Positions 935 to 23,795 of a stretch of DNA of 64,000 nucleotides are shown piece after piece. This DNA comes from Lepraria neglecta (taxonomy: Eukaryota; Ascomycota; Lecanoromycetes; Lecanorales; Stereocaulaceae), in NCBI GenBank assembly GCA_033220425.1, contig CM065651.1, positions 1,736,001 to 1,800,000 on the forward strand, read 5' to 3'. The notes beneath the pieces are model-generated. The model was not told where the DNA came from. It did no database searches and was given only the letters and a program-made list of their open reading frames with translations. Position 1 is the stretch's first letter, and every line of letters starts with the position of its first letter. The translations under genes and the position numbers were made by a program.

Positions 935-2801
935 TTTGCCTCTACTAGTAACTAATAGTAAATTAGACCGTAGACGGGCTCCTTCGATCCGGAAAGCCTA
1001 TAAGGGTTATCATTTTCGTACGGAATACTAGCTATTTATAGCAGTTGGCGTCGACCTCGTTGAAAGAGATTATAGATAAGACCTTATCGACTCTTTACGT
1101 CGAGCTGCGTAAGGCTTAGTTCAAGTTCCTTATGAACGATAAATGGCTACTTTTAAATATATTTGTCTTCGACCTCTACTATAAGGTATACCAGTCGGTA
1201 TCTACCTACTATATCGAACGTTTACCGGTCGTGATCGTAGACTACGATCGCTAGTATACCGACGTTTCTATTATAGAGAGCTTTATACGTAACTAAACTA
1301 ATACTCGGGTTATAGAGCTCTATAATCTTAACGAATAGGATAGCAAGCCGCCTTTTTTCGCCGACTACACTTTATCTAAGCGCCTCTCCTACCAAAAACT
1401 ACGTGATACTTTACTCTTAAGCTCGTCGATATCTATAGGGATATAGGACAAGATATATTAATGGTATAACAAACTATATTTACCTATAAGGGTAGGAGGT
1501 TAGAGAGGAAGTAGTGACGCTACGGTATGAATGTCCCTACTAGATATACAAGGCCTGTTTAGCGAAATACGTCAGCTTCATCGAGAAGGAGGACGGCGTT
1601 CATTTATCGGCGCGCTAAAATATTAGAGGCAATTACGATTCAAGCTTCTCTACCATTATGCCTAGTTCGCCGGCGGAGATCTACTATATTAGTATCGATA
1701 GTAGTCTTATCCATTAGCTAGAAGACGTACCGAATAGAGTGGCCTTCGAAGATGTTCAAATATTCCCTCAGCTGTCAAAGTCTTGCCGACGCCTGTAAGC
1801 CCACTGGCAAAAGGTATTAGCACAGTATAAAGAAATATCGCTAGCACCGATCGAAGCTGACGTGTCCAGATTGTAATAGCGCTGCCAGCCCCAGATCGAG
1901 CGAAGGCGCAGGGTGGGTATATCAGCTCGATATACCGCCGGAAACGATACTAACAGCGGACAGAGGAATCGGTAGTAGTGGGTAACACCCTTGTAGAGGA
2001 TTATAATACCTAGAATACTCAGCGAGAGGCCGGCGGAGGGGATCAAGAGAGAGAGCCTGTGTGTCTAGGTTAGTATAGACGACTTAACCGCTATAGACAT
2101 ATCTGATGATTCTAGACCAGTTAATTATGCCCTACGATACGGATAGTAAAGAAGACTCTAATACGTATAAGGCTTTACGAAACTAGCCGCCGCCCTAATT
2201 CAAGCGCCTATCTATCCTAAGACCTTATAACGGGAAGAATCGTGTAAGTTTGACTCGGAATAAACCTAGCAGTATTGAATATATCTTTCTGGTTCAGCGA
2301 TATTAATGGTCGTCTAACGCTCTCCAGGTAACCCGATCGTGGTTAAGGATAAGGACACCGATAGCAGCGGCGACGGACACTAACAGACTACGTGGATCCA
2401 GATATTTCAACCTCCACGAGCAGAGCGAACGTGGTACCCCTAATACCCTTCCCCCATACCAAAATACTCTCTCGTCGACCCCTAGCAAGTAAATGTACAG
2501 GTCTAAAGGCGGAGATTGCGAGGGTCTTACGCCTGATCTATTAACGGGTAGAGATAAGAAGAATCTATAGAATAGTTAAGAGGCGGAGGCGGATAATAAG
2601 GAAGAAGATTAAGAGAGATATAATAGGGATAGGGACAAGAAGACTATACCTTCGCTGGGATTAACAAAGAAAAGGCGTCCGTCTGCCGTTAAGGGGACGT
2701 CTATATCGAAGCGTCACGTTAAATGTCGCTACTGTTTGTTACCTAGGCGAGATAAAGCTGTCAGTAGTTAAGGTAGGTATAGAGTACATATTTTATACTT
2801 C

Positions 2802-2982
2802 TTTAGCATATGTGCTTGCTAATAAGTTCATATGAGAAGAACCATGTTCATTGCATGCTATTGCTAACTCTATGGAGTCGCGTGCAGAAAGTAAATACAC
2901 TTTTCGTGCGTGAATACTACGCTAACCGCTTTAGGCTTAGTGCAAGGGGCACCGCTAGAGATTCCACCACATAATGCTAACG
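2802..2982 (-). repeat. 3' LTR of copia element
   Basis: 181-bp direct repeat, about 99% identical to 11471-11651. It lies next to a polypurine-like tract (2983-2992 read on the minus strand), which marks it as the 3' LTR of the minus-oriented element. Confidence 0.85.
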
Positions 2983-4857
2983 CTCCCATTTGAAATCGAC
3001 GGCGGCGAGGTCCACCACAACATCCAAATCCCTATCCAATCACACTCGGAGATAGTCCAAGCTTGTATCTAAAAGGGGAGAAGTCGTTTGGGGCAATTGG
3101 TTTGGTCATTCCGTCAGCAACCATGTCTGAGGTGTTGGCGTAATCGACGGTGAGTTCGCCGGTTTCTGAGACCATTTCGCGTACTAAATGGAACTTATTG
3201 CGTATGTGCTTTGTTCGAGTATGATTCACCGGGTTTGTGGCAAGCTTGATCGCTGATTGGTTGTCTCCCATCAGCCTTATAGGCATCAAGTCGTCTTCAT
3301 CATAGCCCATTTCATTGAGCAGGGGCCCCACAAAGAGAGATTCTTTCCCATTCCACAATTGAAAGACGTAGCCCGATGTTGTATAGGATGTATCCTTGTT
3401 ATCTGCCCACGAAGAATCCGTCCATCCAATAAGCTTGCCACCAGGATTGACTCCTTCGGTAACATCTCCAGGTCTATAGCGGAGTCCAATGTCGGTGGTT
3501 CCGGCTAGATATTTGGCAATCCGCTTGGCGGCATTGAAATGCTCGGTTGTAGGGTTGTTTGAATAGCGTCCACATTTGCCAACTGCGTATACAAGATCCG
3601 GGCGTGTCATAGTAACCAACCACTGGAGAGCACCTACCAGGGAACGGTAGCCTTCTGCTTCCTCCTCATTTGCGGTATAGTCCTTTGGCGCCGCAGTTAT
3701 ATCGTTACCTCTATCCATAGGAGAGGTGACTGGATGGCAGTCCTCCATATCTAGCTAAGTAATCAGCTGCTTGGTGTATGTAGTCTGGTTGATGTAGATA
3801 GTGCGATTAGGACGATCCCGCATGATTGATATTCCCAGATACCAGTTGATATCGCCGAGGTGTTTCATTCGGAAGCGTCCATCTAACTGTGTCTTGAATT
3901 CTGAGATCAATTGCTTGTTGGGGGCGCACATGAGTATATCGTCTATATAAATAGCAACTATTATACTATTCTTATAGGTGAAGATTAAGTAGTCCTTTAT
4001 GAGTCTCGTATACCTAATAGACTCTATGAACTCTCGAATAGTAGTATACCACTCGCGGGGAGACTGTTTTAATCCGTATAGTACACGGCGGAGTCGGCAA
4101 GCATTGTTGCGGTTCCCATTAGTAAAACCATGGGGTTACTCGACCTATACTTCCTCTTTTAGGGATGACTCTAGGAAGGCGGTGATAACGTCTGATTACT
4201 CTATCTCGTAGTCGTACTTAGCGCAGAGGGCTATAAGTATTCTTACCGTAGTTACTTTAGCAGTGCTTAAGAAGGTCTCATTATAGTTAATACTATAGAT
4301 CTGCCTGAATCCTTTAACGACCTATCTAGCCTTGTAGCGGGCGATGTTTCCTTCCGAATCCAGCTTCAGGGCGAGGACCTACCGACCTGGCAAAGCCTTC
4401 CTGCCATTTGGCAGAGGTACGGGTATATCCTATATTCCCATCTCTTTCAGCGAGTTGAGCTCTTCTTGTAGGGCAGTCATCCATTTATCTTTATCTGGGC
4501 CCTTAAGAGTATTATCGATAGTAGCAGGGACGGAAGGAGTCTGATCGATAGTAACCTTACAAGCTCTCGCGGCAAAGCCCTTCTTCTTATACTCCCTGAC
4601 ACTATAAAGTTACTTATAGTTAGGCTTCTCCTGAGTACGGGTTCGTATAGGCCGTATATTTGGATCAGGAGATGGATCGGGTTTAAACCACTCGTCTTCA
4701 GAATCAGAAGATAGTATAACTTCTTCTGCAGGCAATACGTCAGTAGCGTCGTCGACTACTTCAGTCTTAGTAGGAATAAGAGGTGTGTTAACAGTAAAGA
4801 ACTGCCAGGAGTCGTTTTCGTCGAACTCGTCCTCCCCCCTATTTCTTTATTATCGTA

Positions 4858-4940
4858 GATCCGAAAAACCTGTTGTAGCGTGGTTTTTTAGTTATCGATT
4901 GGCGCGCGCACACACCAAAATCTGAACAAAGTCGGCTTTT
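4858..4940. repeat. Left 83-bp terminal inverted repeat
   Basis: Starts gatccgaaaaacctg, preceded by TA. It is an exact reverse complement of 8810-8892 over all 83 bases. Confidence 0.95.
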
Positions 4941-5120
4941 GCATATAAATCGATTATCGCACCAAATATACATATAAAAAGCTTCCTAAACAGGCAATTG
5001 TGAGGCTTCTAGCGTAGTGTTGCTGTCGCCCCCAGGGTTGCAGCCCTATCTGCCACCCCGCCGACGTCCAACCTCGCTGTCGACCCCCACTATGCCTCCA
5101 GAAACCACCCTCCCCCCCCC

Positions 5121-7505
5121 ATGACGACTCGCCGCCGTGGTCTCCCCACACTGCCGTCTACAGCACCACCCTCTGCGACTCCGAAGCCCCCAGCAGCCCG
5201 CAAAAAGCCTGCCCCCAAGCCTGCCCCCAGGCGTCCAAGCAAAGCGCCCAAACCAAAGAAGCCCCCACTAGCCAAATTACAAAAGGCGCCCTTATCTAAA
5301 TCCGCTACCGCTGTCGCCGCCGCTGGACAGAGATACTGGGACGCTCAGATTGAGCAGGATAATGAAGAAGACGCTATAGCTGCTGCGCAGGAAGAAGCCC
5401 GCAGGCTGGAGCACCAGAGCTTTTATGAGAAATACTACCATACCCTGAATATGGACTCACAAAACACCTCTGGAGAACTCAGCTCTCTAGAGCTATCGCC
5501 TGGGGGGAAGGAGCGCTATCAGAAGGCATGTACTGAGGAAGAATCAAGACGAGCAGCTGTAGCTCGCACTGCTATATGGGACGAATTCAAAGCAGTTGGT
5601 TATTCGGTGGAATGGTGGGTCCATTTCGAGAAGATTGAGCTATTCAGAGACTCCACTACACATACTATGGGAGCCGCGGGACGCCTGGATTGGGAAGCCT
5701 GGTACAACAGGCTTCATCCAATGGGTCGGGAGCATGCAGATAGCGAGGGAAAGAGCTGCTATACGGTTGCAATCAGGGCAGATTTGAAGGTAGGTAATAC
5801 AGCTGGCAAATCTACTAGTACCATAAATATGAAAGATGGCGAGCTGGACTCCATTTGGCAAAAGAAGGTCCTGAGTCTGATGCAGCTCAGACACGAAAGT
5901 CGTCCCAAGAAGAATGCAATACTGACTTTTAAAGTCGGTGTTGAATTCTTCTTTGCTCGTACTCATAACGGTATTCTTCCAGCGTCTATGCTACCGTCTA
6001 TACCTCCAACACAGTCGCAAATAAAGGCACAGCAGTCCCAGGCTAAAACACTGCGGGTAGATCTACTCAAGACTCAACAACAAGCTTTGGTCGATCAGCA
6101 TGAGCTTGCGTTGATAGCAGCCCACAAATGCACTTCGCCCAGTTGTCCAAATAGCGCCGGTGGACAGTGCTTACTGCAGGATGGCAAGCATTATGCTCTC
6201 GATGGACCTCACATTCGTGCCTGGGTTCAATGTATCAACACCAACACTGCTACACCAAGCACCCCTCCTCCTAATTTCCATATCAACGCAAGGCTGAGAC
6301 GTCAGATTCCCCACGGGACCAAGGATCGCAAGAAGCAGGAGGAGGTCCTACCGCCAATAACACCTGCCCCAGCAGCCACAGACGTCATGGATGAGAAGTA
6401 TATGGACAGAGCTTTTAAGCTAGCAACGCTGAAGCTTATGGGAAAGCTCATTGGCGACGATATCCCAGCTTCACCGACACCTCATCTAACGCCAACGCCA
6501 GCGCCAGCGCCAGCACCAGCGCCTACGCCTGCTCGTACGCCATCTCCTCCACTATTACCGCGTCCTTGCTACACGGCGTCTTCTTCCAGGTCGCGCGCTT
6601 TATCGCATCTTCCTGACGCTGACGTATTAAGGCCAAGTAGCCCTGTGACTACTGAAGATTGGGCTGGATATATCTCATGGCTTTGCAATATAGAAAACAC
6701 CTGGACAGGGGCAAAAAAAGAAGCTTTTGAGCACGCTGGACATGTTCTAGAAGAAGCTTATATATCGATTCAGTCTATCCAACAGGAAATGAAGGGCTTA
6801 GGGCATAAGGCTTATTGGGATTCTATGGATATTAAACCTGGAGTTGGGCATCATCTCGCTCGACTTGCCAGTAAATATCAGGCTTATGAGAAGCAGAAAT
6901 CTGCCAGTCGTCAATGTCAGTCGTTCTGCTTTTATTCCACCGTTAATTTCTATTTATAAGTGGTATTTTGGCGGTTGAATATATGGCAATCTTTTAGCTG
7001 TGCGGCTTTCTCCGCCGCTAAATATTACAGATTTTAGCTTCTGCGCTATCGTTTTATTACATAAGATTTGGCAGTGCTTAGTTATTAAATACACGGGTGA
7101 TCTGCAACTAGGTGAAATAATACGCTGGAATTCGTGTTTTTTTGGCTTGGCAGTTGGAGAAGGCTGTATAGAGCACAATCAATTAATTTTGCTAATATCT
7201 TTACTTTAGCAGGTACTACAAAAGCTTCACCGTTTGATATAACATCCTCACCGCCGCCATCTGCTCAGGTCCAGGTACCTGCGTCTCAAGCAACGACTCA
7301 GGATAAGACGGGGAAGCCATTATCGCCGCAGTACTATGCGCCAAAGAACTATGGAGCAGATGACGATTATAAGTCAGGTAGCAGCGACGACGACGATATG
7401 CTAGAGACTCAGCGGCCCCTTAGCGAGAATGCGATTATACAGAGTATCGAGACTCAGCAGTGGGAGCGAGAAAAAGCAGGCTACGAGTCATATCGACGTC
7501 AATAA
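5121..7505 (+). CDS. Passenger protein of the Tc1/mariner element, function unknown
   Basis: Exon 1 runs 5121-6915 and exon 2 from 7210 (or 7213) to 7505, giving about 696 residues. The intron has donor GTCAGT, branch gctaat and acceptor ttactttag; without splicing the frame stops at 6957-6959. The first 75 residues are a basic Ala/Pro/Lys-rich tail resembling a linker-histone tail. A helical Glu-rich stretch follows, then a Trp-rich central region (EWWVHF, LDWEAWY). Near residue 335 there is a Cys cluster (CTSPSC, then GGQC, HY and WVQC) that could bind zinc. A Pro/Ala repeat (PTPAPAPAPAP) near 455 separates a helical C-terminal domain. The spliced tail is acidic (SGSSDDDD). I recognise no catalytic motif. 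It is convergent with the transposase and shares the element's intact ends. DNA binding is a guess from the basic tail and Cys cluster. Confidence 0.7.
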
Positions 7506-7623
7506 GATAATTGCACACATATATATATCTTATTTGCCAACTACCAATCAAAAGCACTTTTCTAATTGCAATTCCATTAAGCCCGCCGTCTATATATAGA
7601 TCTCTCTGCTATTTAGCTATTTT

Positions 7624-8713
7624 TTACCGCCCTTCATAATATATGCCCGCTGCTCGAAATAGTGCCCCATGGTCAGCAAGGTCGCCCTGCGCCCTTACCG
7701 CATCATTCAAAAATCTCTCAAAGTCTGCCGGCTCAGGACCATATACGTCAATAAGATAACCATTCCTTTTAAGCCACCCCTTAAGGATAGCAAATGAGGT
7801 CTCAATGGGGTTATAGTCTGGTGAGTACGGTGGAAGATAAGCTAATGTAACGCCTGCAGCCTCGCACATATCCACTAATTCCTGCGAGTGGTGGATAGAT
7901 GCATTGTCAAGGATAAGCACTGAACGAGGCCCTCCTAGTGCTGCAGGGGTACACTGTGGGAGAACCTTATTGCGTACAAAATCATTGAATAAAGTCTCGG
8001 TGAGAGAACCATGGATAGTGGTCCAGGCAATATATCCATCCACCGTATATGCAGGAAGAACTGACCACCTCTTTGATCTTTTGAATAGCGTATTTACCCC
8101 TACCTCTGCACCAAGACGAGACCAGCCAAACTTCCTATCAGCGGTACGCTCATGGGACGCGGTCTCATCCAGAAATATCAGCTGATTTGCGGTCCAGCTA
8201 CATAGCTTTGCTTTCCATTCATCGCGCTCGCGCTGGTCTCGCTGAGAAGCTCGGTGGGAAGCCTGTCCAGACGTTAATAAGTAAGTCAGGCTATACCTTA
8301 TATTAATGGGAGGCGAGGCTTACTTTTTTATGTGACCAATTACATCGCCGCAGGGTGTCATGAATAGTAGACTCGCCGAGCGTCAGACTATACATATCGT
8401 ATAGAAAATATACCATTTCAAAGAGATAAGACAGTGGCTTTTCATCCAGCCAATCAGTCAGGGCTTTCTCCATTACTTCAGTGAGAAGGCGGGGACGGCC
8501 CTGCACCATATATGGGGCAACGACCGTCCCCCACGCCTCCAGGTTCCGCTTCATCTTGGAGATCTGCTGTTGAGTCACACCAGTACGGTCTACTATATCT
8601 TTGACTGTATCACCGCGGTCGAGATAGTGCTCGATATCGAAACGTGTCTGAGAGCCTAGTGGGGGTGGCATTTTGGCGGCGGCGAGGGTGGTAGGCAGCG
8701 ACAGCGCGGGCAA
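7624..8713 (-). CDS. Tc1/mariner (IS630-like) transposase
   Basis: Exon 1 is 8713-8324 and exon 2 is 8262-7624. The 61-nt intron has donor GTAAGC, a ttaac branch site and acceptor acag; the frame continues exactly, giving 342 residues, normal for the family. The N-terminus has a helix-turn-helix (DTVKDIVDRTGVTQQQISKM, about residues 34-53). The catalytic triad is visible as FLDETA, LILDNASIHH and PDYNPIE, with 34 residues between the second Asp and the Glu (DD34E). It would cut and paste the element at TA sites using the 83-bp ends. No stop or frameshift was seen. An alternative start is the Met at 8671. Protein and ends both look functional. Confidence 0.9.
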
Positions 8714-8809
8714 GAGCTCCGTTTATGGGGGCAAAAGCAACACTATGCCAAGAGCTTCACTTTTGCCCATTTAGGAACGATTCTGACTACTGGTGATGGA
8801 GATCTAGTA

Positions 8810-8892
8810 AAAAGCCGACTTTGTTCAGATTTTGGTGTGTGCGCGCGCCAATCGATAACTAAAAAACCACGCTACAACAGGTTTTTCGGATC
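8810..8892. repeat. Right 83-bp terminal inverted repeat
   Basis: Ends caggtttttcggatc, followed by TA. Exact inverse of 4858-4940. Confidence 0.95.
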
Positions 8893-11456
8893 TACGATAT
8901 CGACAGAAGCGTCGAGTTCCTAATTAACCTATACAGAGAGAATTACCTACTTCCGTTCGAGATCCTAGAAGCGGTACTAGTTATTATTCTTCCTATAGCC
9001 TAGGAATTTGCATTTAATAGCCTTATTATCTAACTTCTTCAATGAAGGATTCGTATTGTAGACGTAGGCGATACATCCAAATGGCTTAAGGTAGCTGATA
9101 TCAGTGTTATTGCTAGTCCAGGCCCTATAGGGTATAGTGGACGAGTCGAGAGATGAGGGTGATCTATTCTTAGTATAGACGATGTAGTTAATTGCCTCCC
9201 CCTATAGGGATTAGCCAAATCTACTGTCTCGAAGGATTGCCCTTATACGGCCAAACAGCGTCCGGAATGTGCGCTCTGCAATTATATTCTGATTGGGCGT
9301 ATATAGTATAGAAGGCTCCCATTGAATCCTACGATCCTTCAGGGTATCCTGGACCTCCTTGTATACGTAGATAGCCTCGTTATCACTAGTAAAGCGACGT
9401 ACTAGATGGCCCTAAGTAGCCATCCAGACTAGAAAGTGTCGAATTATAGTAGGAAGTTCTGACTTGCGCTTAAGTATATAGATCTAGACTATATCGGTAG
9501 CCTCGCAGATAAAGGAGACACAGTAGCGATATCCTCCCTTAGTAACCTTGATATGGCCGCCTCCAGCGATGTCTGAGCAGATCTTAGCGCCCTTGACAGT
9601 CTCTTACTTAGAGACGTCTTGTCGATGAGGGATACGATTGTATATCTTAGCCATCTTCCCTATGGAGCATTCTTCGCACAGCTTATGCGGAGGAACGTCC
9701 TTCTGGAGCTTATCAGCCATAACGGCGTCAATCCCAGTAGCAATTTTGGAAAGCTTCCTGACATCTTGTATACCCAAATGGCCAAGGCGTCGGTGCCATT
9801 TATCCCAGGAAGCATGATTTACTAGAGGCTTCTTAGAAGATCTCAGCGCTTACGGGGGATAAGTATACTTCAGGTCGAGCAAATAGCTCTTGCCAACACG
9901 GGTGCCTGATAGTACGACCTCATCATCTTCGGAATCAATGATATCGAAGCGTCCATCCTTAATAGAGGCGTAGTAGCCCTTATCTTCCAGGGTTACAATC
10001 GATAGAAGGTTATAGTCCATATCAGGAACATAATATACGCCACTAAGGCGGACGTATTTAGCCTTCCCATTAAGAATTCTTGGATATAGTGCAGTACCGA
10101 TCCCGAGGACCCTCAGAGCCTTGCTATCGATGCCAGTAAGGGTCTTATTACTTGGCTCATAATCTTCGAACTTGGATCGATCCTACAGCGTATATACGTT
10201 AGAGGCGGTATCTATATAGACAGCTTATTCCTTTAGTGCAGACGTGATTAATATATTAATAACCTTAGTACTGAAGGACCTCGTAATACGGGCTGTTAAC
10301 TGAGACGATTCTTCAGTACTCCCATTGTATCTGGCAGAAGAGGCTTTCTTCTGTTTATTTTCTATTAGTAGATCTTCCCTTCCCTTGGCTACTTCCCATT
10401 CCTTTAGACGTAGGTACTTATATAGATAGTAGCAGTGAGTGTTACCGTATCGATATAAGCCGTAGCAGCTACAGGGAGGAGTTCCGAGATCCTTTCGATC
10501 ACCTGGTTTAGCGTCTTTTACAGTATCCTTCTTCTTCTTCCTCTGGTACTATAGCTTTTCCGGCTTATCTTGCTTTCTAAATCTAGCTGCCATAGCCTTA
10601 GACATCTCTTCTTAGAGTTTAATACGCCGATCGTGTTCTAAGAGAGCGGTTGCCATATCGTCGATATCGAGTTCTTTTCCAGATACCTTTAACGCCTAGA
10701 TCAACTAGAAAGTATACGGTTCAAGTCCTTCTTCAAGTCCTATTCGGAAGAATAAGGATAGCTACCAAGTGGGAAGCCCAACCCCCATGTTAGCGAGGAT
10801 AGTTTGTTACTTCTTGATAGCCTCTGTGTATTCCTGAATGGATTTATAAGATAAGGACTCGATACGAGCAATTATAGATAATGCTGCATCTCGTATTAAG
10901 AGGTCAGAAGCGCTATACTACTTCTTTAGCTTCTCCCATTAGGTATAGATGGTATCTAAGCCCTTGATGTGTTCTCTAGGACCTTCCTCAGTATAGAATA
11001 CAAGCCGTGTAATACCTTTTCAGTTCTTCTTCTTCCAAGCCTTGGTGTCTTTGTCCTACTGTATAAGTCTTCTCTAGTAGTCGTCCAATTAGGACTGTGT
11101 AGCAGCGACTGCGGGAACTGCAGAACCATTAGCAGCGGTATAAGCTGCTTGGTTTATAGGCTGGGGAGGTATATCTGGCAGGAGTTCTTCGCCACTGACT
11201 ACCTCCCAGGTCTCGTCTATTTCAAATATTGCCTGTATCTTATATTTAAACCTTGGCCAGTTCTTCGCCCCCTTCAGCTTCTCGATCTTATAGGTCGTAG
11301 ACTCTATCGTTAAATATCCTGATCTTCTCTGGAGCGGGCAGATTATTGTTTTGCCAATTGGTGTTAAGAAATATCAACACTCGGTGGAAGATGGTGCAGT
11401 ATCACTTTACTGAGGGCCTGGAATCAATATTGATAGCTGTCAACGGGTGCTGAACC

Positions 11457-11470
11457 CGGGCTCATAACCC
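11457..11470 (-). other. Copia primer-binding site (initiator-tRNA anticodon loop type)
   Basis: Directly inside the 5' LTR the plus strand reads cgggctcataaccc. This matches the anticodon stem-loop of initiator tRNA-Met (anticodon CAT). Copia-class elements are known to prime from a 5' half-tRNA of initiator Met cleaved in the anticodon loop, so position and sequence agree. The match is to a remembered tRNA consensus, not to a tRNA gene from this genome. Confidence 0.65.
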
Positions 11471-11651
11471 TTTAGCATATGTGCTTGCTAATAAGTTCAT
11501 ATGAGAAGAACCATGTTTATTGCATGCTATTGCTAACTCTATGGAGTCGCGTGCAGAAAGTAAATACACTTTTCGTGCGTGAATACTACGCTAACCGCTT
11601 TAGGCTTAGTGCAAGGGGCACCGCCAGAGATTCCACCACATAATGCTAACG
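11471..11651 (-). repeat. 5' LTR of copia element
   Basis: 181-bp direct repeat matching 2802-2982 with two transitions. The primer-binding site abuts it on the interior side, so this is the 5' LTR. The candidate target duplication tacttc follows at 11652-11657. Confidence 0.85.
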
Positions 11652-15346: not shown

Positions 15347-17385
15347 CGGAGAATGACACCAAAAGTCTTGAATCCGTGGCATACTAGTTAAGTCGTTTCT
15401 ATCCACTCCGCACTCAATACCCATAGTTTAATGTATTACGAACACAATACACATTTTTTGCAAGCTTTATAGCAACTCCAATAACTCCAACTTCTTCAAC
15501 TAATAGCAACTATCTATTCAGACACTAATACTAGCATTCAAGCTCCCATTATGACTGCTATCAGGACTATAGCCTTGCTTCCGACCCTTATACCGCTGCT
15601 GACGCTTCGCAGGGATATATGGACGTATATCAGACCATTCGCCTTCCTCCCTTCCTTCCCTATACTCGTTCCCACCGCGCAATTCTATAACTTTAGCAAT
15701 ATGACGTGGGAGGCGTTCAATCCACGATTGGATACGCTTCTAGCTAAGTTCTTTTTCCCAACAGCGCGTCTAGACCTTAGTCAGAATCGCCCTGGTCCGC
15801 GGGCAGCCTTTGCGAGTTGTACGCCTCTTCATCCACCACCAACACGGTTCTATAGCATTCAGATCCGGGGAATTACCGCACCACATAAGGCGGAGGACGT
15901 TAGCGTCCAGGAATATCTGATTTTAGTGCTTAGACGTATGCGAAGGAGCCTTATCCTCTTAGATAAGAGCCTCAGGGCTATATATTTTTGCAAATAGGAT
16001 AAGCAGTTTCAGCAGAATAACCGTTTGATAGCGGTACCAATCGATACCTCCCTTCTTTGCGTTTCGGACGATTTTACTATACTTTTAGTCCTATTTCCAA
16101 GCAGGCTTAGTACTACCCATATTCTTCAGTCCCATTCTTTTCATTGCCGTCTCAAGTTCCCATTTAGCTTTAAGCTTTAGCTCTAAAATCTTATTTATAG
16201 CGTCTATATACGCCTTAGATTCTTTCTTTTCTGCTACGGTCTCGTCCTTCCAGATATAGAACGGCCCTTTTCTATCATATGTGAAACAGCCCCAAACATA
16301 AACTCCATAAAGCCTCCCCATCGCCGCCGTGTACATGTTACGTTATATTTTTCCCGCGAAGTTCTCCATATTCTAACTTTGCCATAGCGTTATCCTAAGC
16401 AAACGGACGTCTTATCAGTCCAGATCACTTTTTTCCAATCTTCTATTATCCAGTACTGGAAGCGTAAAATAAATTAATAGCGGGCTTCCATCATAGCAGG
16501 TATAAGGCCCGGTTTCTTTATAGTTTTAACATTTTTGAAGCCGTATCTGCGCAGGGTTCGAAGCACTGAGGAAGAAGAGACTCTATTTTTAAATCCTAGT
16601 ACTGCAGATAGCTTCTCTCTACTATTACGGTCTTTCTTTACTGAATTTATTAGTAAAGATACCTCTAGACCAGGAAAAGTATATACCAGCTGCTAGGATT
16701 TGAGCCTCTTTTGTAGGCGTTGAAATACGCGGTCTGCCAGAACGTCCTGCATCCGCAATATATTCTTCTTTTAAAATCGACGAGGCTGCAGGGTCGAATC
16801 CGCGTTCTCTAGCCTTCTTCCGTAGCCTTTTAACTGACGTTGCATTATATAGTCCAGCCTGTACAGCTGCTATCTTCTCCTCTAACCGTATTCGGCCAGG
16901 GCGAGTACTTAGAGTCGCTGCGCTATCGAATGATTGACTGAACGGCAATCTTTAGCGAGCGTCTTAAGGCTTAGGGTCTCTTCTAGGGCAGGGAGAGCTG
17001 CTGTAGGAGGCGAATAACGTATACGGCGTGGGCTTTCAATGATTAATGGCGCGATCGACTCATTCAGCTGCGCGACTGGACCGTACCTGCGAGGATTTCT
17101 TCTTGGTGGAGCAATTGGCTGAGATTCAGGCCCAGCTGCTACACCGCGGCGGCGAGGAGCCATTGATACAGTAATATCTATAGCCTACGGAATTCCCTAT
17201 CTATCTAGTACCTGATACGTATCACTCTAAGCCCCCTGGCCCCCATTCCTGACCCCATTGGCGGTGCTATATCGATATTTAGCTGCAGATGCGGCAAATT
17301 TTTCGGTAGGGCTGAGGTCTGAGGCCTGCTTGGCGCCGTGGCATTCAGTACTAGCGCAATTCAAGACTTTTGGTGTCATTCTCCG
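15347..17385 (-). mobile_element. Degraded Tc1/mariner element with 27-bp inverted ends
   Basis: A 27-bp sequence beginning cggagaatgacaccaaaag (15347-15373) recurs inverted at 17359-17385, each flanked by TA (15345-15346 and 17386-17387). The enclosed 2039 bp is the usual Tc1/mariner size and contains transposase remnants on the minus strand. Its TIR differs from that of the 4.0-kb element, so it is a different family. The coding region is broken and TA-enriched, as after RIP. Confidence 0.75.
15650..17163 (-). pseudogene. Decayed Tc1/mariner transposase
   Basis: The N-terminus begins at an ATG (17163) with a Pro/Arg-rich leader. A frame change near 16930 leads to a helix-turn-helix region (AAVQAGLYNATSVKRLRKKA, GRPRISTPTKEAQILA). 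The middle shows VYVWGCFTYDRKGPFYIW (16336-16270), and the end near 15770-15660 shows SWIERLPRHIAKVIELRGG, the typical C-terminal helix. Several stops and frame changes separate these, so it is non-functional. A plus-strand open frame at 15551-15997 is its antisense shadow. Confidence 0.7.
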
Positions 17386-18002: not shown

Positions 18003-18616
18003 ATGATTCCCATGGAATTAACCGGTAACGTGCGGAACCGCTTCGTCCAAGCTGCTGTTCCCCTCCGCATGCTCGATCCTATTCGTGGGGAGCCCACGGT
18101 GCACGGTCTTGACGAAGACTTACACGAGATGAGGACGCCAAGAGAGCGTCTTCTAAAACGGAAGTTCCTTGACTCTTTCGCGCTCATTTGCGCTATTAAA
18201 AGGGACGGCGACAGTGTCTCGGCGGCGTGTATGGAGGAAGGTGCGCCGCAAGGGACAGTTATTCGGGTTACCAGCAATTCCGGAGTAGGTGAAAGGACCT
18301 TGAGTCAACTCCGAGAGCTTGTAGCTGTGTTGAACAGCATCGGGAGCGGAGGTACGCTAGCCTATAGGTCCAGAACTGCACGTAATGTTCGTTAGGTTGA
18401 CCTTGTTCTTCCCCAGCTCTCGCGATATTTGACGGGAAAGCCGAGATTCTCGTCAGGATCGTAAGGCTCGACATTGTAAAGATACGTAACTACGTAAAGG
18501 ATCTCCGTGCCGCCAAGAATGTCTTCGAGGAGCCTGTCTCTGCTGTTGAATCACGTATCACAAAAGTTTCCAATTCAGCACCTGGTCTACAGCAATTTCC
18601 AGGATTCATTAAATAA
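18003..18616 (+). CDS. Conserved fungal hypothetical protein, probably truncated
   Basis: Exon 1 is 18003-18351 and exon 2 is 18417-18616 (intron gtacgc...ccccag), giving about 182 residues. The core (KRKFLDSFALICAIKRDGD, SAACMEEG, VTSNSGVGERTLSQLREL) resembles a region I remember from many fungal hypothetical proteins of unknown function. Exon 2 continues LAIFDGKAEILVRI and LRAAKNVFEEP. The stop at 18614-18616 lies inside the left arm of the palindrome that begins at 18600, so the original C-terminus has probably been replaced by that structure. Confidence 0.5.
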
Positions 18617-19366
18617 TCAGGTGCCGCCCACTTTCAACCAGTTATACCCAGTCACAACACCAGACTTGCTCGCTTTTAGCTTCAGTTGCGCTAAGCTGCC
18701 CATCACAATACTTCAGCACTTGTGGATGATCAGACGCTATGCCCCTATTGCGCGCCTATACCCTTCTGTGACTTGAACCTTTCGGAGATCTTTCCAATTC
18801 GAGAACGAGTGCTTTAAAGAAGGGAAAGGCGTCACCCAACGGGTATACTAATGGTCAATCGAACGACGGTTGCATCGGGGGGCGAACTTTCCCCCACACT
18901 AACCCGCCTAAGGCAGGCGATAATAAAGGCGCCATTGACGAGTATAGGAAACAGCGAGGTAGCTAATCCTATCTAAGAGCTTGTATGCATGAAAAGGAGG
19001 CTTGAATTCGAACATAAAGCAAAATATGGCGTGCTTCGCTTCTAAATCGACGGGCTAGCCTAAACAAATCTCTTGTTTCGATTTAGAAGCGAAGCACGCC
19101 ATATTTTGCTTTATGTTCGAATTCAAGCCTCCTTTTCATGCATACAAGCTCTTAGATAGGATTAGCTACCTCGCTGTTTCCTATACTCGTCAATGGCGCC
19201 TTTATTATCGCCTGCCTCAGGCGGGTTAGTGTGGGGGAAAGTTCGCCCCCTGAAGTATTGTGATGGGCAGCTTAGCGCAACTGAATCTAAAAGCGAGCAA
19301 GTCTGGTGTTGTGACTGGGTATAACTGGTTGAAAGTGGGCGGCACCTGATTATTTAATGAATCCTG
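18600..19366. repeat. 767-bp near-perfect palindrome (foldback)
   Basis: Outer arms 18600-18716 and 19250-19366 (117 bp, one mismatch) and inner arms 18878-19050 and 19078-19250 (173 bp, one mismatch) form one continuous inverted repeat around a 27-bp centre (19051-19077). The right arm is continuous over 289 bp; the left arm carries 161 extra bases (18717-18877). A transcript through it would fold into a long hairpin. No transposase or clear target duplication is present. Confidence 0.9.
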
Positions 19367-22154: not shown

Positions 22155-23795
22155 ATATTTGAGTGCTCCGGAGGCACTTCGGGGGTGACTGCGGTGGTAG
22201 CTTCAGGGAACTCCGCAGGCAAAAACATGTTTTTGAAGCTTTCCTTAGCCAAATTTCAACTAAATTTCAAAATTCGAACGGTATTAGAAAGCGTATAGCT
22301 GGTTCTAAAACCCGCAGGATTATAATGATATCATATGACGTATATGGCGCAGGGTATTGCTGCGAAGAAGTTGCGGTGCGCATTCAATTTTTGATGTTCC
22401 AGGGTCCGGGGGCGCCAAGCTCAATGCTTGGCATTTGCTATAAGCTTGCGCTGCCCGTAAAACATGGCGAAACCGCTTCTTTTGCTCATAAGTTTTGCGT
22501 AAATAGACCGATTTTGAAAATTTTGACGGTATTGGAAAGCGCATGCTTAGTTCCAAAACTTATGAAATTATCTCGATATCATATGACGTATGTGGCGCGG
22601 GGTATTACTGCGAAGAAGTTGCGGTGCGTATTCAACTTTTGATATTCTAGGTCCGGGGGCGCCAAGCTCAATGCTTGGCATTTGCCATAGAGCTCGCGCT
22701 ACCCGCAAAACATGGCGAAAACGCTTCTTTTGCTCATAACTATTGCGCAAATCGGCTGATTCTAAAAGTTCTTAATACGCAAGCAAGCTAATGATTGACT
22801 CCAAAACTTGTGAAATTATCTCGATATCATATGATGTATGTGGCGCGGGGAAGTACTGCGAAGAAGTACGTAGCGTATTCAACTTTTGGTGGTTGAAGGC
22901 GCTAGCCGAGAGAGGAAATGCAGCTCTAAAGGGCTGTTCTAATTGGCTGCAAGTGCGGAATTGCTCCGAAAGTCCTCATAATCTGTTATTAGAAGAAAGA
23001 TTTGCTAGGTAGATTAGCTCCAATTTCCAGTATCTAGCCCCCAGAGCTTGCGCCCGGAGTAGTTGCCCCGGGGCGCTTTCCAGGGTGCGGCAGGGCGGTT
23101 AGGGCTAGGGTTTACTAACCGCATTTAGGGGGGGTTAACGTATCAACACCCTAAATGTTTAAGTGCTCCGGAGGCACTTCGGGGGTAACTGCGGGGCAGC
23201 TTCACGGAACTCGCAGGCAAAACCATGTTTTTTGAGCTTTCCTTAGCCAAATCTTAACCAAATTTCAAAATTCGAACGGTGTTGGAAAGCGCATGCTCGG
23301 CTCCAAAAATTATAAAATCATCTCGATATCATATGATGTATATGGCGCGGGGCATTGCTGCGAAGACGTATTCAACTTTTGATGTTCTAGGGGGCGCCAA
23401 GCTCAATGCTTGGCATTTGCCACTGAGCTTGCTTCTTTTGCTCATAACTATTGCGCAAATCGGCTGATTCTAAAAGTTCTTAATACGCAAGCAAGCTAAT
23501 GATTGACTCCAAAACTTGTGAAATTATCTCGATATCATATGATGTATGTGGCGCGGGGAAGTACTGCGAAGAAGTGCGCAGCGGCTTCAACTTTTGGTGG
23601 TTGAAGGCGCTAGCCGAGAGAGGAAATGCAGCTCTAAAGGGATGTTCTGATTGGCTGCAAGTGCGGAATCCCTCCGAATTTCGCCATATTCTGTTATTAG
23701 AAGAAAGATATTTGTCTTTATCAGCTCTGAAGCCCCACTATCTGCCTGCAAATAGCTCCTCAGCTCCGCCATTGAGCTTCTTTGAAGCGGTTGCG
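22155..23795. repeat. Two blocks of a noncoding ~248-bp tandem repeat
   Basis: Block A (about 22155-23010) and block B (about 23160-23790) start with the same leader, agtgctccggaggcacttcg, and end with the same tail (genomic Gln-like run gcaagtgcggaa... then ttagaagaaagat). Inside, the motif gatatcatatgaYg recurs at 22327, 22575 and 22823 (exactly 248 apart) in block A, and at 23325 and 23531 (206 apart) in block B. So block A has three units and block B two, one shortened. The short frames within are not conserved between units. No ends of a known transposon class were found. Confidence 0.8.

Follow-up and report, generated by a model that had tools for sequence, protein, structure and literature searches.

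The 64,000-nucleotide stretch of DNA analyzed here (the window: Lepraria neglecta assembly GCA_033220425.1, contig CM065651.1, positions 1,736,001 to 1,800,000, here C6:1736001-1800000) contains a transposable element of the IS630/Tc1/mariner type that carries two convergent genes. One encodes a DD34E transposase and the other a protein that belongs to no family we could recognize. Each gene starts just inside a terminal inverted repeat (TIR). All genome searches reported below were made in one L. neglecta genome of 42.02 Mb in 11 contigs. Introns, a copia-like retroelement and repeat-induced point mutation, all described below, are in keeping with a filamentous ascomycete. These searches revealed further copies of the element, which we call family 1, and more distant relatives with the same layout. 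Together they indicate that a two-gene lineage exists within a known superfamily, that it is real and young, and that the element in the window is not a one-off.

The two inverted arms, at 4851-4940 and 8810-8899, are 90 nt long and 100% complementary, with the outermost TA of each included. Because a TA stands immediately outside TCGTAGATCC in all 11 identical copies of the element, we read the outer TA of each arm as the target duplication. The element therefore occupies window positions 4853-8897 (4045 bp) and has 88-bp TIRs. Perfect ends and TA duplications had been predicted and are confirmed, but the predicted 83-bp ends at 4858-8892 were too short, and the element extends five bases farther at each end. 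An inner 29-mer of the TIR is expected 0.00 times by chance, as judged from 100 shuffles of the window. The element is inserted in a retroelement on the minus strand (2801-11651), which is flanked by two 182-bp repeats (2801-2982 and 11470-11651) that are 99% alike and are probably its long terminal repeats. We take this host to be copia-like, judging by eye from motifs in the open reading frame (ORF) at 3032-3748. When the flanks of the insertion are joined at a single TA, they match eight other places in the genome uninterrupted, with 90-98% identity. All eight are other copies of the host retroelement and represent the empty site with one TA.

The transposase gene lies on the minus strand in two exons (Table 1) and encodes 328 aa, open once a predicted 61-nt GT-AG intron is removed. 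Exon 2 matches the Pfam family DDE_3 (E 8.6e-21, 74.8 bits), and exon 1 matches several helix-turn-helix families in Pfam, every score lying below the family cut-off. The second D and the E are separated by 34 residues in this transposase and in those of families 2 and 3, described below. When the family-3 transposase was the query, it passed the NCBIfam IS630 model at 129.6 bits (cut-off 100). These data bear out the prediction of an intact DD34E transposase. The family-1 element thus has the TA duplication, the TIRs and the DD34E transposase with DDE_3 that are hallmarks of Tc1/mariner elements. It departs from the single-gene layout that is typical of the superfamily without defining it, and the second gene is present in all 13 full-length TIR pairs. 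Other assignments were tried and rejected. Against DDE_1, the mark of a pogo/Fot1 element, we found only 18.1 bits (cut-off 22), and Pfam listed no CENP-B domain. VANDAL elements, which carry VANC, belong to the MULE superfamily; the transposase ORFs here gave no MULE match and the second protein gave no Pfam match.

The second gene lies on the plus strand as a 612-codon ORF that is convergent with the transposase gene. A further open frame at 7134-7505 could supply a second exon, whose acidic tail, compared by eye, is loosely similar to the family-2 protein's end. There are 32 GT-AG introns that would keep the frame open, one of which (6916-7209) gives 696 aa. A convergent gene of about 696 codons had been predicted; the gene is there and is intact, while the length represents one of these 32 predicted solutions.

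To count copies of family 1, we scored 40 of 44 TIR candidates. The 40 matches are scattered over the genome and comprise 12 unpaired ends, 11 intact full-length pairs and three further pairs (L031, L033/L034 and L032). Among the intact copies there are zero substitutions over 4045 bp, and they vary solely in the length of a C run just before the ATG, by 0-3 extra C. The element is young, as predicted. A TA stands on both sides of each of these copies and of L031. In 11 of 11 the second gene is 100% identical over residues 1-612 and has no stop. L031 is full-length and contains the second gene with stops. C>T and G>A changes account for 418 of its 429 substitutions, and 357 of them fall at CpA/TpG, a pattern indicating that L031 was mutated by repeat-induced point mutation (RIP). 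In the L033/L034 pair (C5:2040053-2050628), the TIRs lie 10.6 kb apart and an insertion splits the second gene near element position 1620. The second gene is therefore found in 13 of 13 full-length pairs: 11 identical and intact, one RIP-mutated and one interrupted. No full copy lacking the second gene was found in this genome, consistent with the prediction that the passenger moves with the element and is maintained. L032 (C6:1025833-1027088) is a 1.26-kb fold-back in which two inverted copies of the transposase end lie between family-1 TIRs and neither gene is whole. The six unpaired ends that we read (L035-L040) are element fragments only.

Two features of individual copies are recorded here. 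The insert in L033/L034 is about 6.5 kb long, and roughly 5 bp of the element (positions 1617-1621) are repeated where the two meet. The intact copy at C7:67161-71208 (L022) borders on its right on the outer end of a TIR that belongs to another copy, and we conclude that L022 inserted at a TA within that TIR.

More distant relatives in the same genome carry a second gene at the same place, and for this reason it looks like a working part of the transposon and not accidental cargo. Family 2, read in copy L041, is 3991 bp long with perfect 68-bp TIRs starting CAGTCG and a TA on both sides. Its transposase frame of 346 aa is open, and the second gene is convergent with it. Six copies appear in the search rows, and L041 differs from L046 by one base in 3996 columns. 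The family-2 second gene is a single 814-codon frame in two copies and has a frame jump near the N-terminus in four; in L041 the jump is one base in a C run. Family 3 (L045 and L049) is 3566 bp long, with perfect 109-bp TIRs and a TA on both sides. Its transposase is open (341 aa), and reading beside it revealed a convergent gene of 677 codons that shares the Cys motif. Of the decayed families 4 (L047) and 5 (L048), the former retains a broken transposase beside the second gene, and no transposase match was found near the latter. As a side observation, a run of C close to where the second gene begins (window 5112-5120; about 1014-1021 in L041) varies in length among otherwise identical copies, by 0-3 extra C in family 1 and by one base in family 2, which is either real slippage or sequencing error.

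The second proteins of the three intact families are homologous, although more diverged than the transposases. Transposase identity is 47% between families 1 and 2, 34% between 1 and 3 and 35% between 2 and 3. For the second proteins, the best local alignments give 20%, 19% and 27% identity over 543, 451 and 78 columns in the same order. Their scores are 130, 98 and 75 against 62, 70 and 66 for the best of 60 shuffles, the family 2-3 score exceeding the shuffles narrowly. BLASTP returned E values of 2e-9, 2e-5 (partly on Pro-rich sequence) and 6e-4, each as a single comparison. Profile-profile comparison gave a probability of 96% over 64 columns centred on the Cys/His knuckle described below. 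Families 1 and 2 are closer to each other in both proteins, as are families 3 and 4, and such parallel grouping is expected if both genes travel together. The presence of a homologue at the corresponding, convergent place in two more intact families indicates that the second gene has long belonged to the lineage and has been inherited along with the transposase. The original prediction had called the passenger unrelated and had allowed for a captured host gene. Neither description is supported, given the homologous convergent genes inside the perfect TIRs of families 2 and 3, in association with two other intact transposases.

The check for a host counterpart did not refute the element reading: four protein searches of the genome detected no full-length intact homologue of the second gene outside an element. 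The nearest non-element homologue, L042, contains 637 open codons of the family-2 gene, with four stops over its whole length and no transposase match nearby. Separately, the second gene has a distant relative at L044 (C2:2511525-2513143), which is decayed, lacks a transposase match nearby and resembles it in having an N-terminus rich in Pro and Lys.

The two genes also lie together far more often than expected. We merged protein-search matches into 69 second-gene clusters and 68 transposase clusters and scored neighbours at a distance of 5 kb. Transposase rows excluded were eight with E > 1e-5 and, in the second search, family-1 and family-2 rows along with overlapping or adjoining places; the remaining rows of that second search were kept to a limit of 0.001. 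Second-gene rows excluded were C5:343488; C6:4459845 and C1:5522724; 9 of 42 (C2:5629012 and eight repeat or extension pieces); and 9 of 20, which were repeats. A transposase match lies within 5 kb of 41 of the 69 second-gene clusters, where the genome fraction covered predicts 1.2, and 38 of these 41 pairs are convergent. This count mixes recent identical copies with old ones; when the 17 recent copies of families 1 and 2 are subtracted, 24 neighbouring pairs are left, 21 of them convergent. In the same-strand pairs C5:240979-241643 and C1:3403859-3404247 (L050), a piece like the C-terminus of the second protein stands directly before a transposase piece (residues about 139-187), and these pairs are possibly rearranged derivatives.

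We estimated the ratio of nonsynonymous to synonymous change (dN/dS) in the second gene. It was 0.36 over 635 codons between the family-2 gene and the decayed L042, and 0.10 over 100 codons between families 4 and 5. These values suggest that the second gene was under purifying selection while the copies were active.

The second protein begins with a basic region: residues 1-100 contain 20 K+R, 9 D+E and 17 P. The predicted "histone-like basic tail" is indeed basic and is better termed a Pro/Lys-rich basic N-terminus. The predicted Cys cluster corresponds to a knuckle of the form C-x4-C-x5-7-C-x6-7-H that is conserved across families. It reads C-x4-C-x7-C-x6-H in family 1 (residues 337-357), C-x4-C-x6-C-x6-H in family 2, C-x4-C-x5-C-x7-H in family 3 and C-x4-C-x6-C-x7-H in family 5. 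In the decayed family 4, the third Cys is replaced by Tyr. A W and a PP follow downstream of the knuckle in all five families. When each of the proteins of families 1-3 is shuffled 2000 times, a motif of the knuckle form arises in 1-2 of the shuffled sequences. Domain searches in Pfam and NCBIfam matched the second proteins to no family, as the original prediction had anticipated, and searches of PDB sequences with the second protein gave nothing below E 0.3.

Structural models add a tentative outline. The AlphaFold model of the family-3 second protein has a mean predicted local distance difference test score (pLDDT) of 59. It contains a confident helix or coiled coil at residues 37-183, a weak strand-helix-strand-strand-helix-strand series at 220-346 within a central domain of pLDDT about 30-68, and a fair C-terminal helical bundle at 577-673. 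The family-1 model (mean pLDDT 38) has an alpha/beta series like that of family 3 with the first strand missing. Foldseek returned 0 matches in the PDB at E <= 0.001; Y-family polymerases were frequent among the best 50 rows, without significance. A structure search against viral models gave one unnamed match (9.7e-4, TM 0.10/0.44), which was discarded. In viral contigs, no relatives were found for P0001, and five pattern matches to the family-2 protein yielded 0 confirmed. From the sequence and these models, the second protein probably consists of a basic N-terminus, a beta-alpha-beta-beta-alpha-beta domain, a CCCH knuckle and a C-terminal helical region. Its sequence suggests that it would bind zinc and nucleic acid.

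The ends of the element offer candidate control regions. In family 1, a subterminal inverted pair of 52 nt (79% alike) lies in the 5' regions of both genes and scores 49 against 27 for the best of 300 shuffles. The corresponding pairs of families 2 and 3 are 22 and 21 nt long and score 34 and 37 against 28 and 29. In family 1, each gene starts just inside a TIR and has one of the two subterminal repeats in its 5' region, so the two may be driven by matching promoters. The TIRs of families 1 and 2 have CACACACCAAAATCTG/CACACACCAAATTCTG in common at equal depth (score 27 against 26 for the best of 200 shuffles), which is perhaps a transposase site.

Table 1. Features of the family-1 element, by position in the window.
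Feature	Position	Strand	Basis
TA target-site duplication, left	4851-4852		TA in all identical copies, empty site
Left TIR, 88 bp, perfect	4853-4940	+	Arm comparison
Subterminal inverted repeat, inside TIR, 5' region of second gene	4983-5034	+	79% over 52 nt
Second gene ORF, 612 codons	5121-6959	+	ORF list, genome copies
Zinc-knuckle-like C-x4-C-x7-C-x6-H, residues 337-357	6129-6191	+	Motif comparison
C-terminal region, residues 488-588, predicted helical, conserved in families 1 and 2	6582-6884	+	Alignment, model
Possible exon 2 of second gene	7210-7505	+	Predicted; acidic tail loosely family-2-like by eye
Transposase exon 2 (DDE_3)	7624-8262	-	Pfam match, splicing prediction
Transposase intron, 61 nt, GT...AG	8263-8323	-	Predicted
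Transposase exon 1, weak helix-turn-helix matches	8324-8671	-	Splicing prediction
Subterminal inverted repeat, partner of 4983-5034, 5' region of transposase gene	8726-8777	-	Shuffle-tested
Right TIR, 88 bp, perfect	8810-8897	-	Arm comparison
TA target-site duplication, right	8898-8899		TA in all identical copies, empty site

Elsewhere in the window, a complex inverted repeat at 18600-19366 has arms of 176 nt and 117 nt, both 99% alike; its only full-length match is to itself, and a single partial match lies on C2. At 22214-23709 there are direct repeats (158 and 279 nt) that are irregular and 66-95% alike. A decayed DDE_3 remnant of another transposase, with two TAA, lies at 15812-15973 (C6:1751812-1751973).

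What does the second gene do? With moderate confidence, we favour an autonomous-looking two-gene Tc1/mariner lineage in which the second product is a co-evolved nucleic-acid-binding accessory factor, likeliest for transposition. The DD34E transposase from the right-hand gene would cut and paste at TA, and the product of the left-hand gene would bind element DNA, the transposase or both and assist transposition, possibly through end binding, complex assembly or nuclear delivery. A partner that acts with the transposase on element DNA is the simplest explanation because the second protein is conserved, basic and knuckle-bearing and is present in every full-length copy found and in separate families. 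The original prediction had proposed a helper for transposition or for escape from silencing, and this remains the best class of explanation, with the function itself at the level of inference. A broader version, which we put forward only tentatively, is that a large fungal Tc1/mariner clade forms a binary system of a DD34E transposase and an obligate, co-evolving partner with coiled-coil or basic, alpha/beta and zinc-knuckle modules. This arrangement of modules recalls the Gag/ORF1 nucleic-acid chaperones of retroelements.

Several observations weigh against a transposition partner. Tc1/mariner transposases usually work without a helper. Neither the family-1 nor the family-3 second protein retrieved the other when used as a query against the genome. 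No transposase match lies within 5 kb of 28 of the 69 second-gene clusters, and 29 of the 68 transposase clusters have no second-gene match within that distance, 24 of the 29 being shorter than 600 nt. One-gene relatives are therefore possible in this genome. Of these 29 clusters we read one, L051 (C4:2915967), which matches the family-3 left end to position 1348, just beyond the transposase. Its right end was not found in the 5 kb read, and it is a truncated family-3 copy, not a one-gene element. The dN/dS comparisons use decayed copies in a RIP-active genome, and transitions, the type of change that RIP produces, account for 88 of the 107 differences in one comparison (family 2 with L042) and 42 of the 69 in the other. 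Finally, the zinc knuckle and the alpha/beta fold rest on a sequence pattern and on low-confidence models.

The main rival, ranked second after a transposition helper, is that the second gene encodes an anti-silencing factor, or one for escape from RIP or chromatin. Like VANC, it would bind the element and keep it expressed while the transposase remained self-sufficient. We consider this rather unlikely. Repeats in this genome are heavily mutated, as L031 shows, yet 11 identical copies are unmutated, and a basic N-terminus with a putative zinc knuckle would suit such a role. In Arabidopsis, VANC proteins bind the DNA of VANDAL elements and are less conserved than the transposase (PMC5735166), and here too the second proteins are more diverged than the transposases (20% against 47% identity for families 1 and 2). 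However, the unmutated copies may merely reflect a burst after the last round of RIP, and no enzymatic or chromatin domain was found in Pfam or NCBIfam. Identical copies that stand unmutated despite active RIP are in keeping with a recent burst as well as with protection and do not decide the matter.

Self-regulation ranks third and seems improbable to us. The second product would then be a repressor, a copy-number control or an RNA-binding protein acting on element transcripts. The convergent genes end 118 bases apart (further if exon 2 is not real), which together with their related 5' regions would permit cross-regulation, but we see no specific sign of repression, and family 1 has multiplied to 11 copies, every one of them with an intact second gene. 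It is very unlikely that the second gene is of host origin, picked up a single time and since carried along as cargo that plays no part in the life cycle of the element. Its lack of a recognized family leaves some room for a host origin, but its homologues at the same place in other transposase families make any capture ancient, and the signs of purifying selection and the lack of a full-length intact homologue outside elements in this genome also speak against it. Accidental enclosure of a neighbouring gene by inverted ends, as a composite formed once in the window, is refuted by 11 identical 4045-bp units at different sites with TA on both sides and by the empty site in eight other copies of the host retroelement.

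Other transposons offer partial parallels. PIF/Harbinger elements are two-gene DNA transposons whose Myb-like second product binds DNA; they belong to another superfamily with another target site, and Pfam found no Myb-like match in the family-1 second protein. VANDAL/VANC elements likewise pair a transposase with a DNA-binding accessory protein, but they differ in transposase superfamily and host, and the VANC domains DUF1985 and DUF287 were not found in the family-1 second protein. Among fungal Tc1/mariner elements, those described from Sclerotinia measure 1.8-2.3 kb and have one transposase gene (PMC4188875), and those described from Verticillium measure about 2 kb and have a single ORF and DDE_1 (PMC3441728). 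They share the TA duplication, perfect TIRs, a DDE transposase and RIP-mutated old copies with the family-1 element, which differs in being 4 kb long with a second gene. Their psq/Tc5-type helix-turn-helix domains, as described there, place them in a branch other than that of the DDE_3 family-1 element.

The nearest precedents are the ciliate TBE/Tec elements and the yeast element Tc1-OP1. TBE and Tec are Tc1/mariner elements with extra ORFs; in TBE, the product of a 57-kD ORF has a zinc finger, and purifying selection acts on all three genes (PMC4724952, PMC7325037). Compared by description only, they differ in their ciliate hosts, their three ORFs, the kinase domain that the 57-kD protein also has and the site-specific recombinase of Tec. 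The family-1 element has two genes and gave no kinase or recombinase match, and we rejected membership. Tc1-OP1 of Ogataea parapolymorpha was termed the first nonclassical Tc1 transposon in 2023; its domainX (1-681 aa) is Ser/Pro-rich and was left unidentified in that report (PMC9977792). It resembles the family-1 element as a Tc1-type element with a large extra protein region. That region, compared by description only, is fused to a DD40E transposase, whereas the extra protein here comes from a separate convergent gene, and membership was again rejected. A literature search of partial coverage, without Repbase, recognized no account of a two-gene fungal Tc1/mariner element, and PMC9594970, PMC5872316, PMC3562529, PMC12730594 (whose text lacks the word mariner) and PMC2836289 contributed nothing on the question; a prior sighting is quite possible.

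Tc1/mariner elements are the textbook one-gene transposons, and their simplicity makes them gene-transfer tools in many hosts. The retention of a second gene over a long span of divergence suggests either that the transposase by itself does not suffice in certain hosts or that silencing has to be countered from within the element. Identical, unmutated copies amid strong RIP provide intact test material for choosing between these. If the second gene is widespread, naming its protein could explain "hypothetical proteins" beside fungal transposases. If the broader, tentative reading of an obligate partner is true, it would mean binary transposition inside a superfamily known for needing the transposase only.

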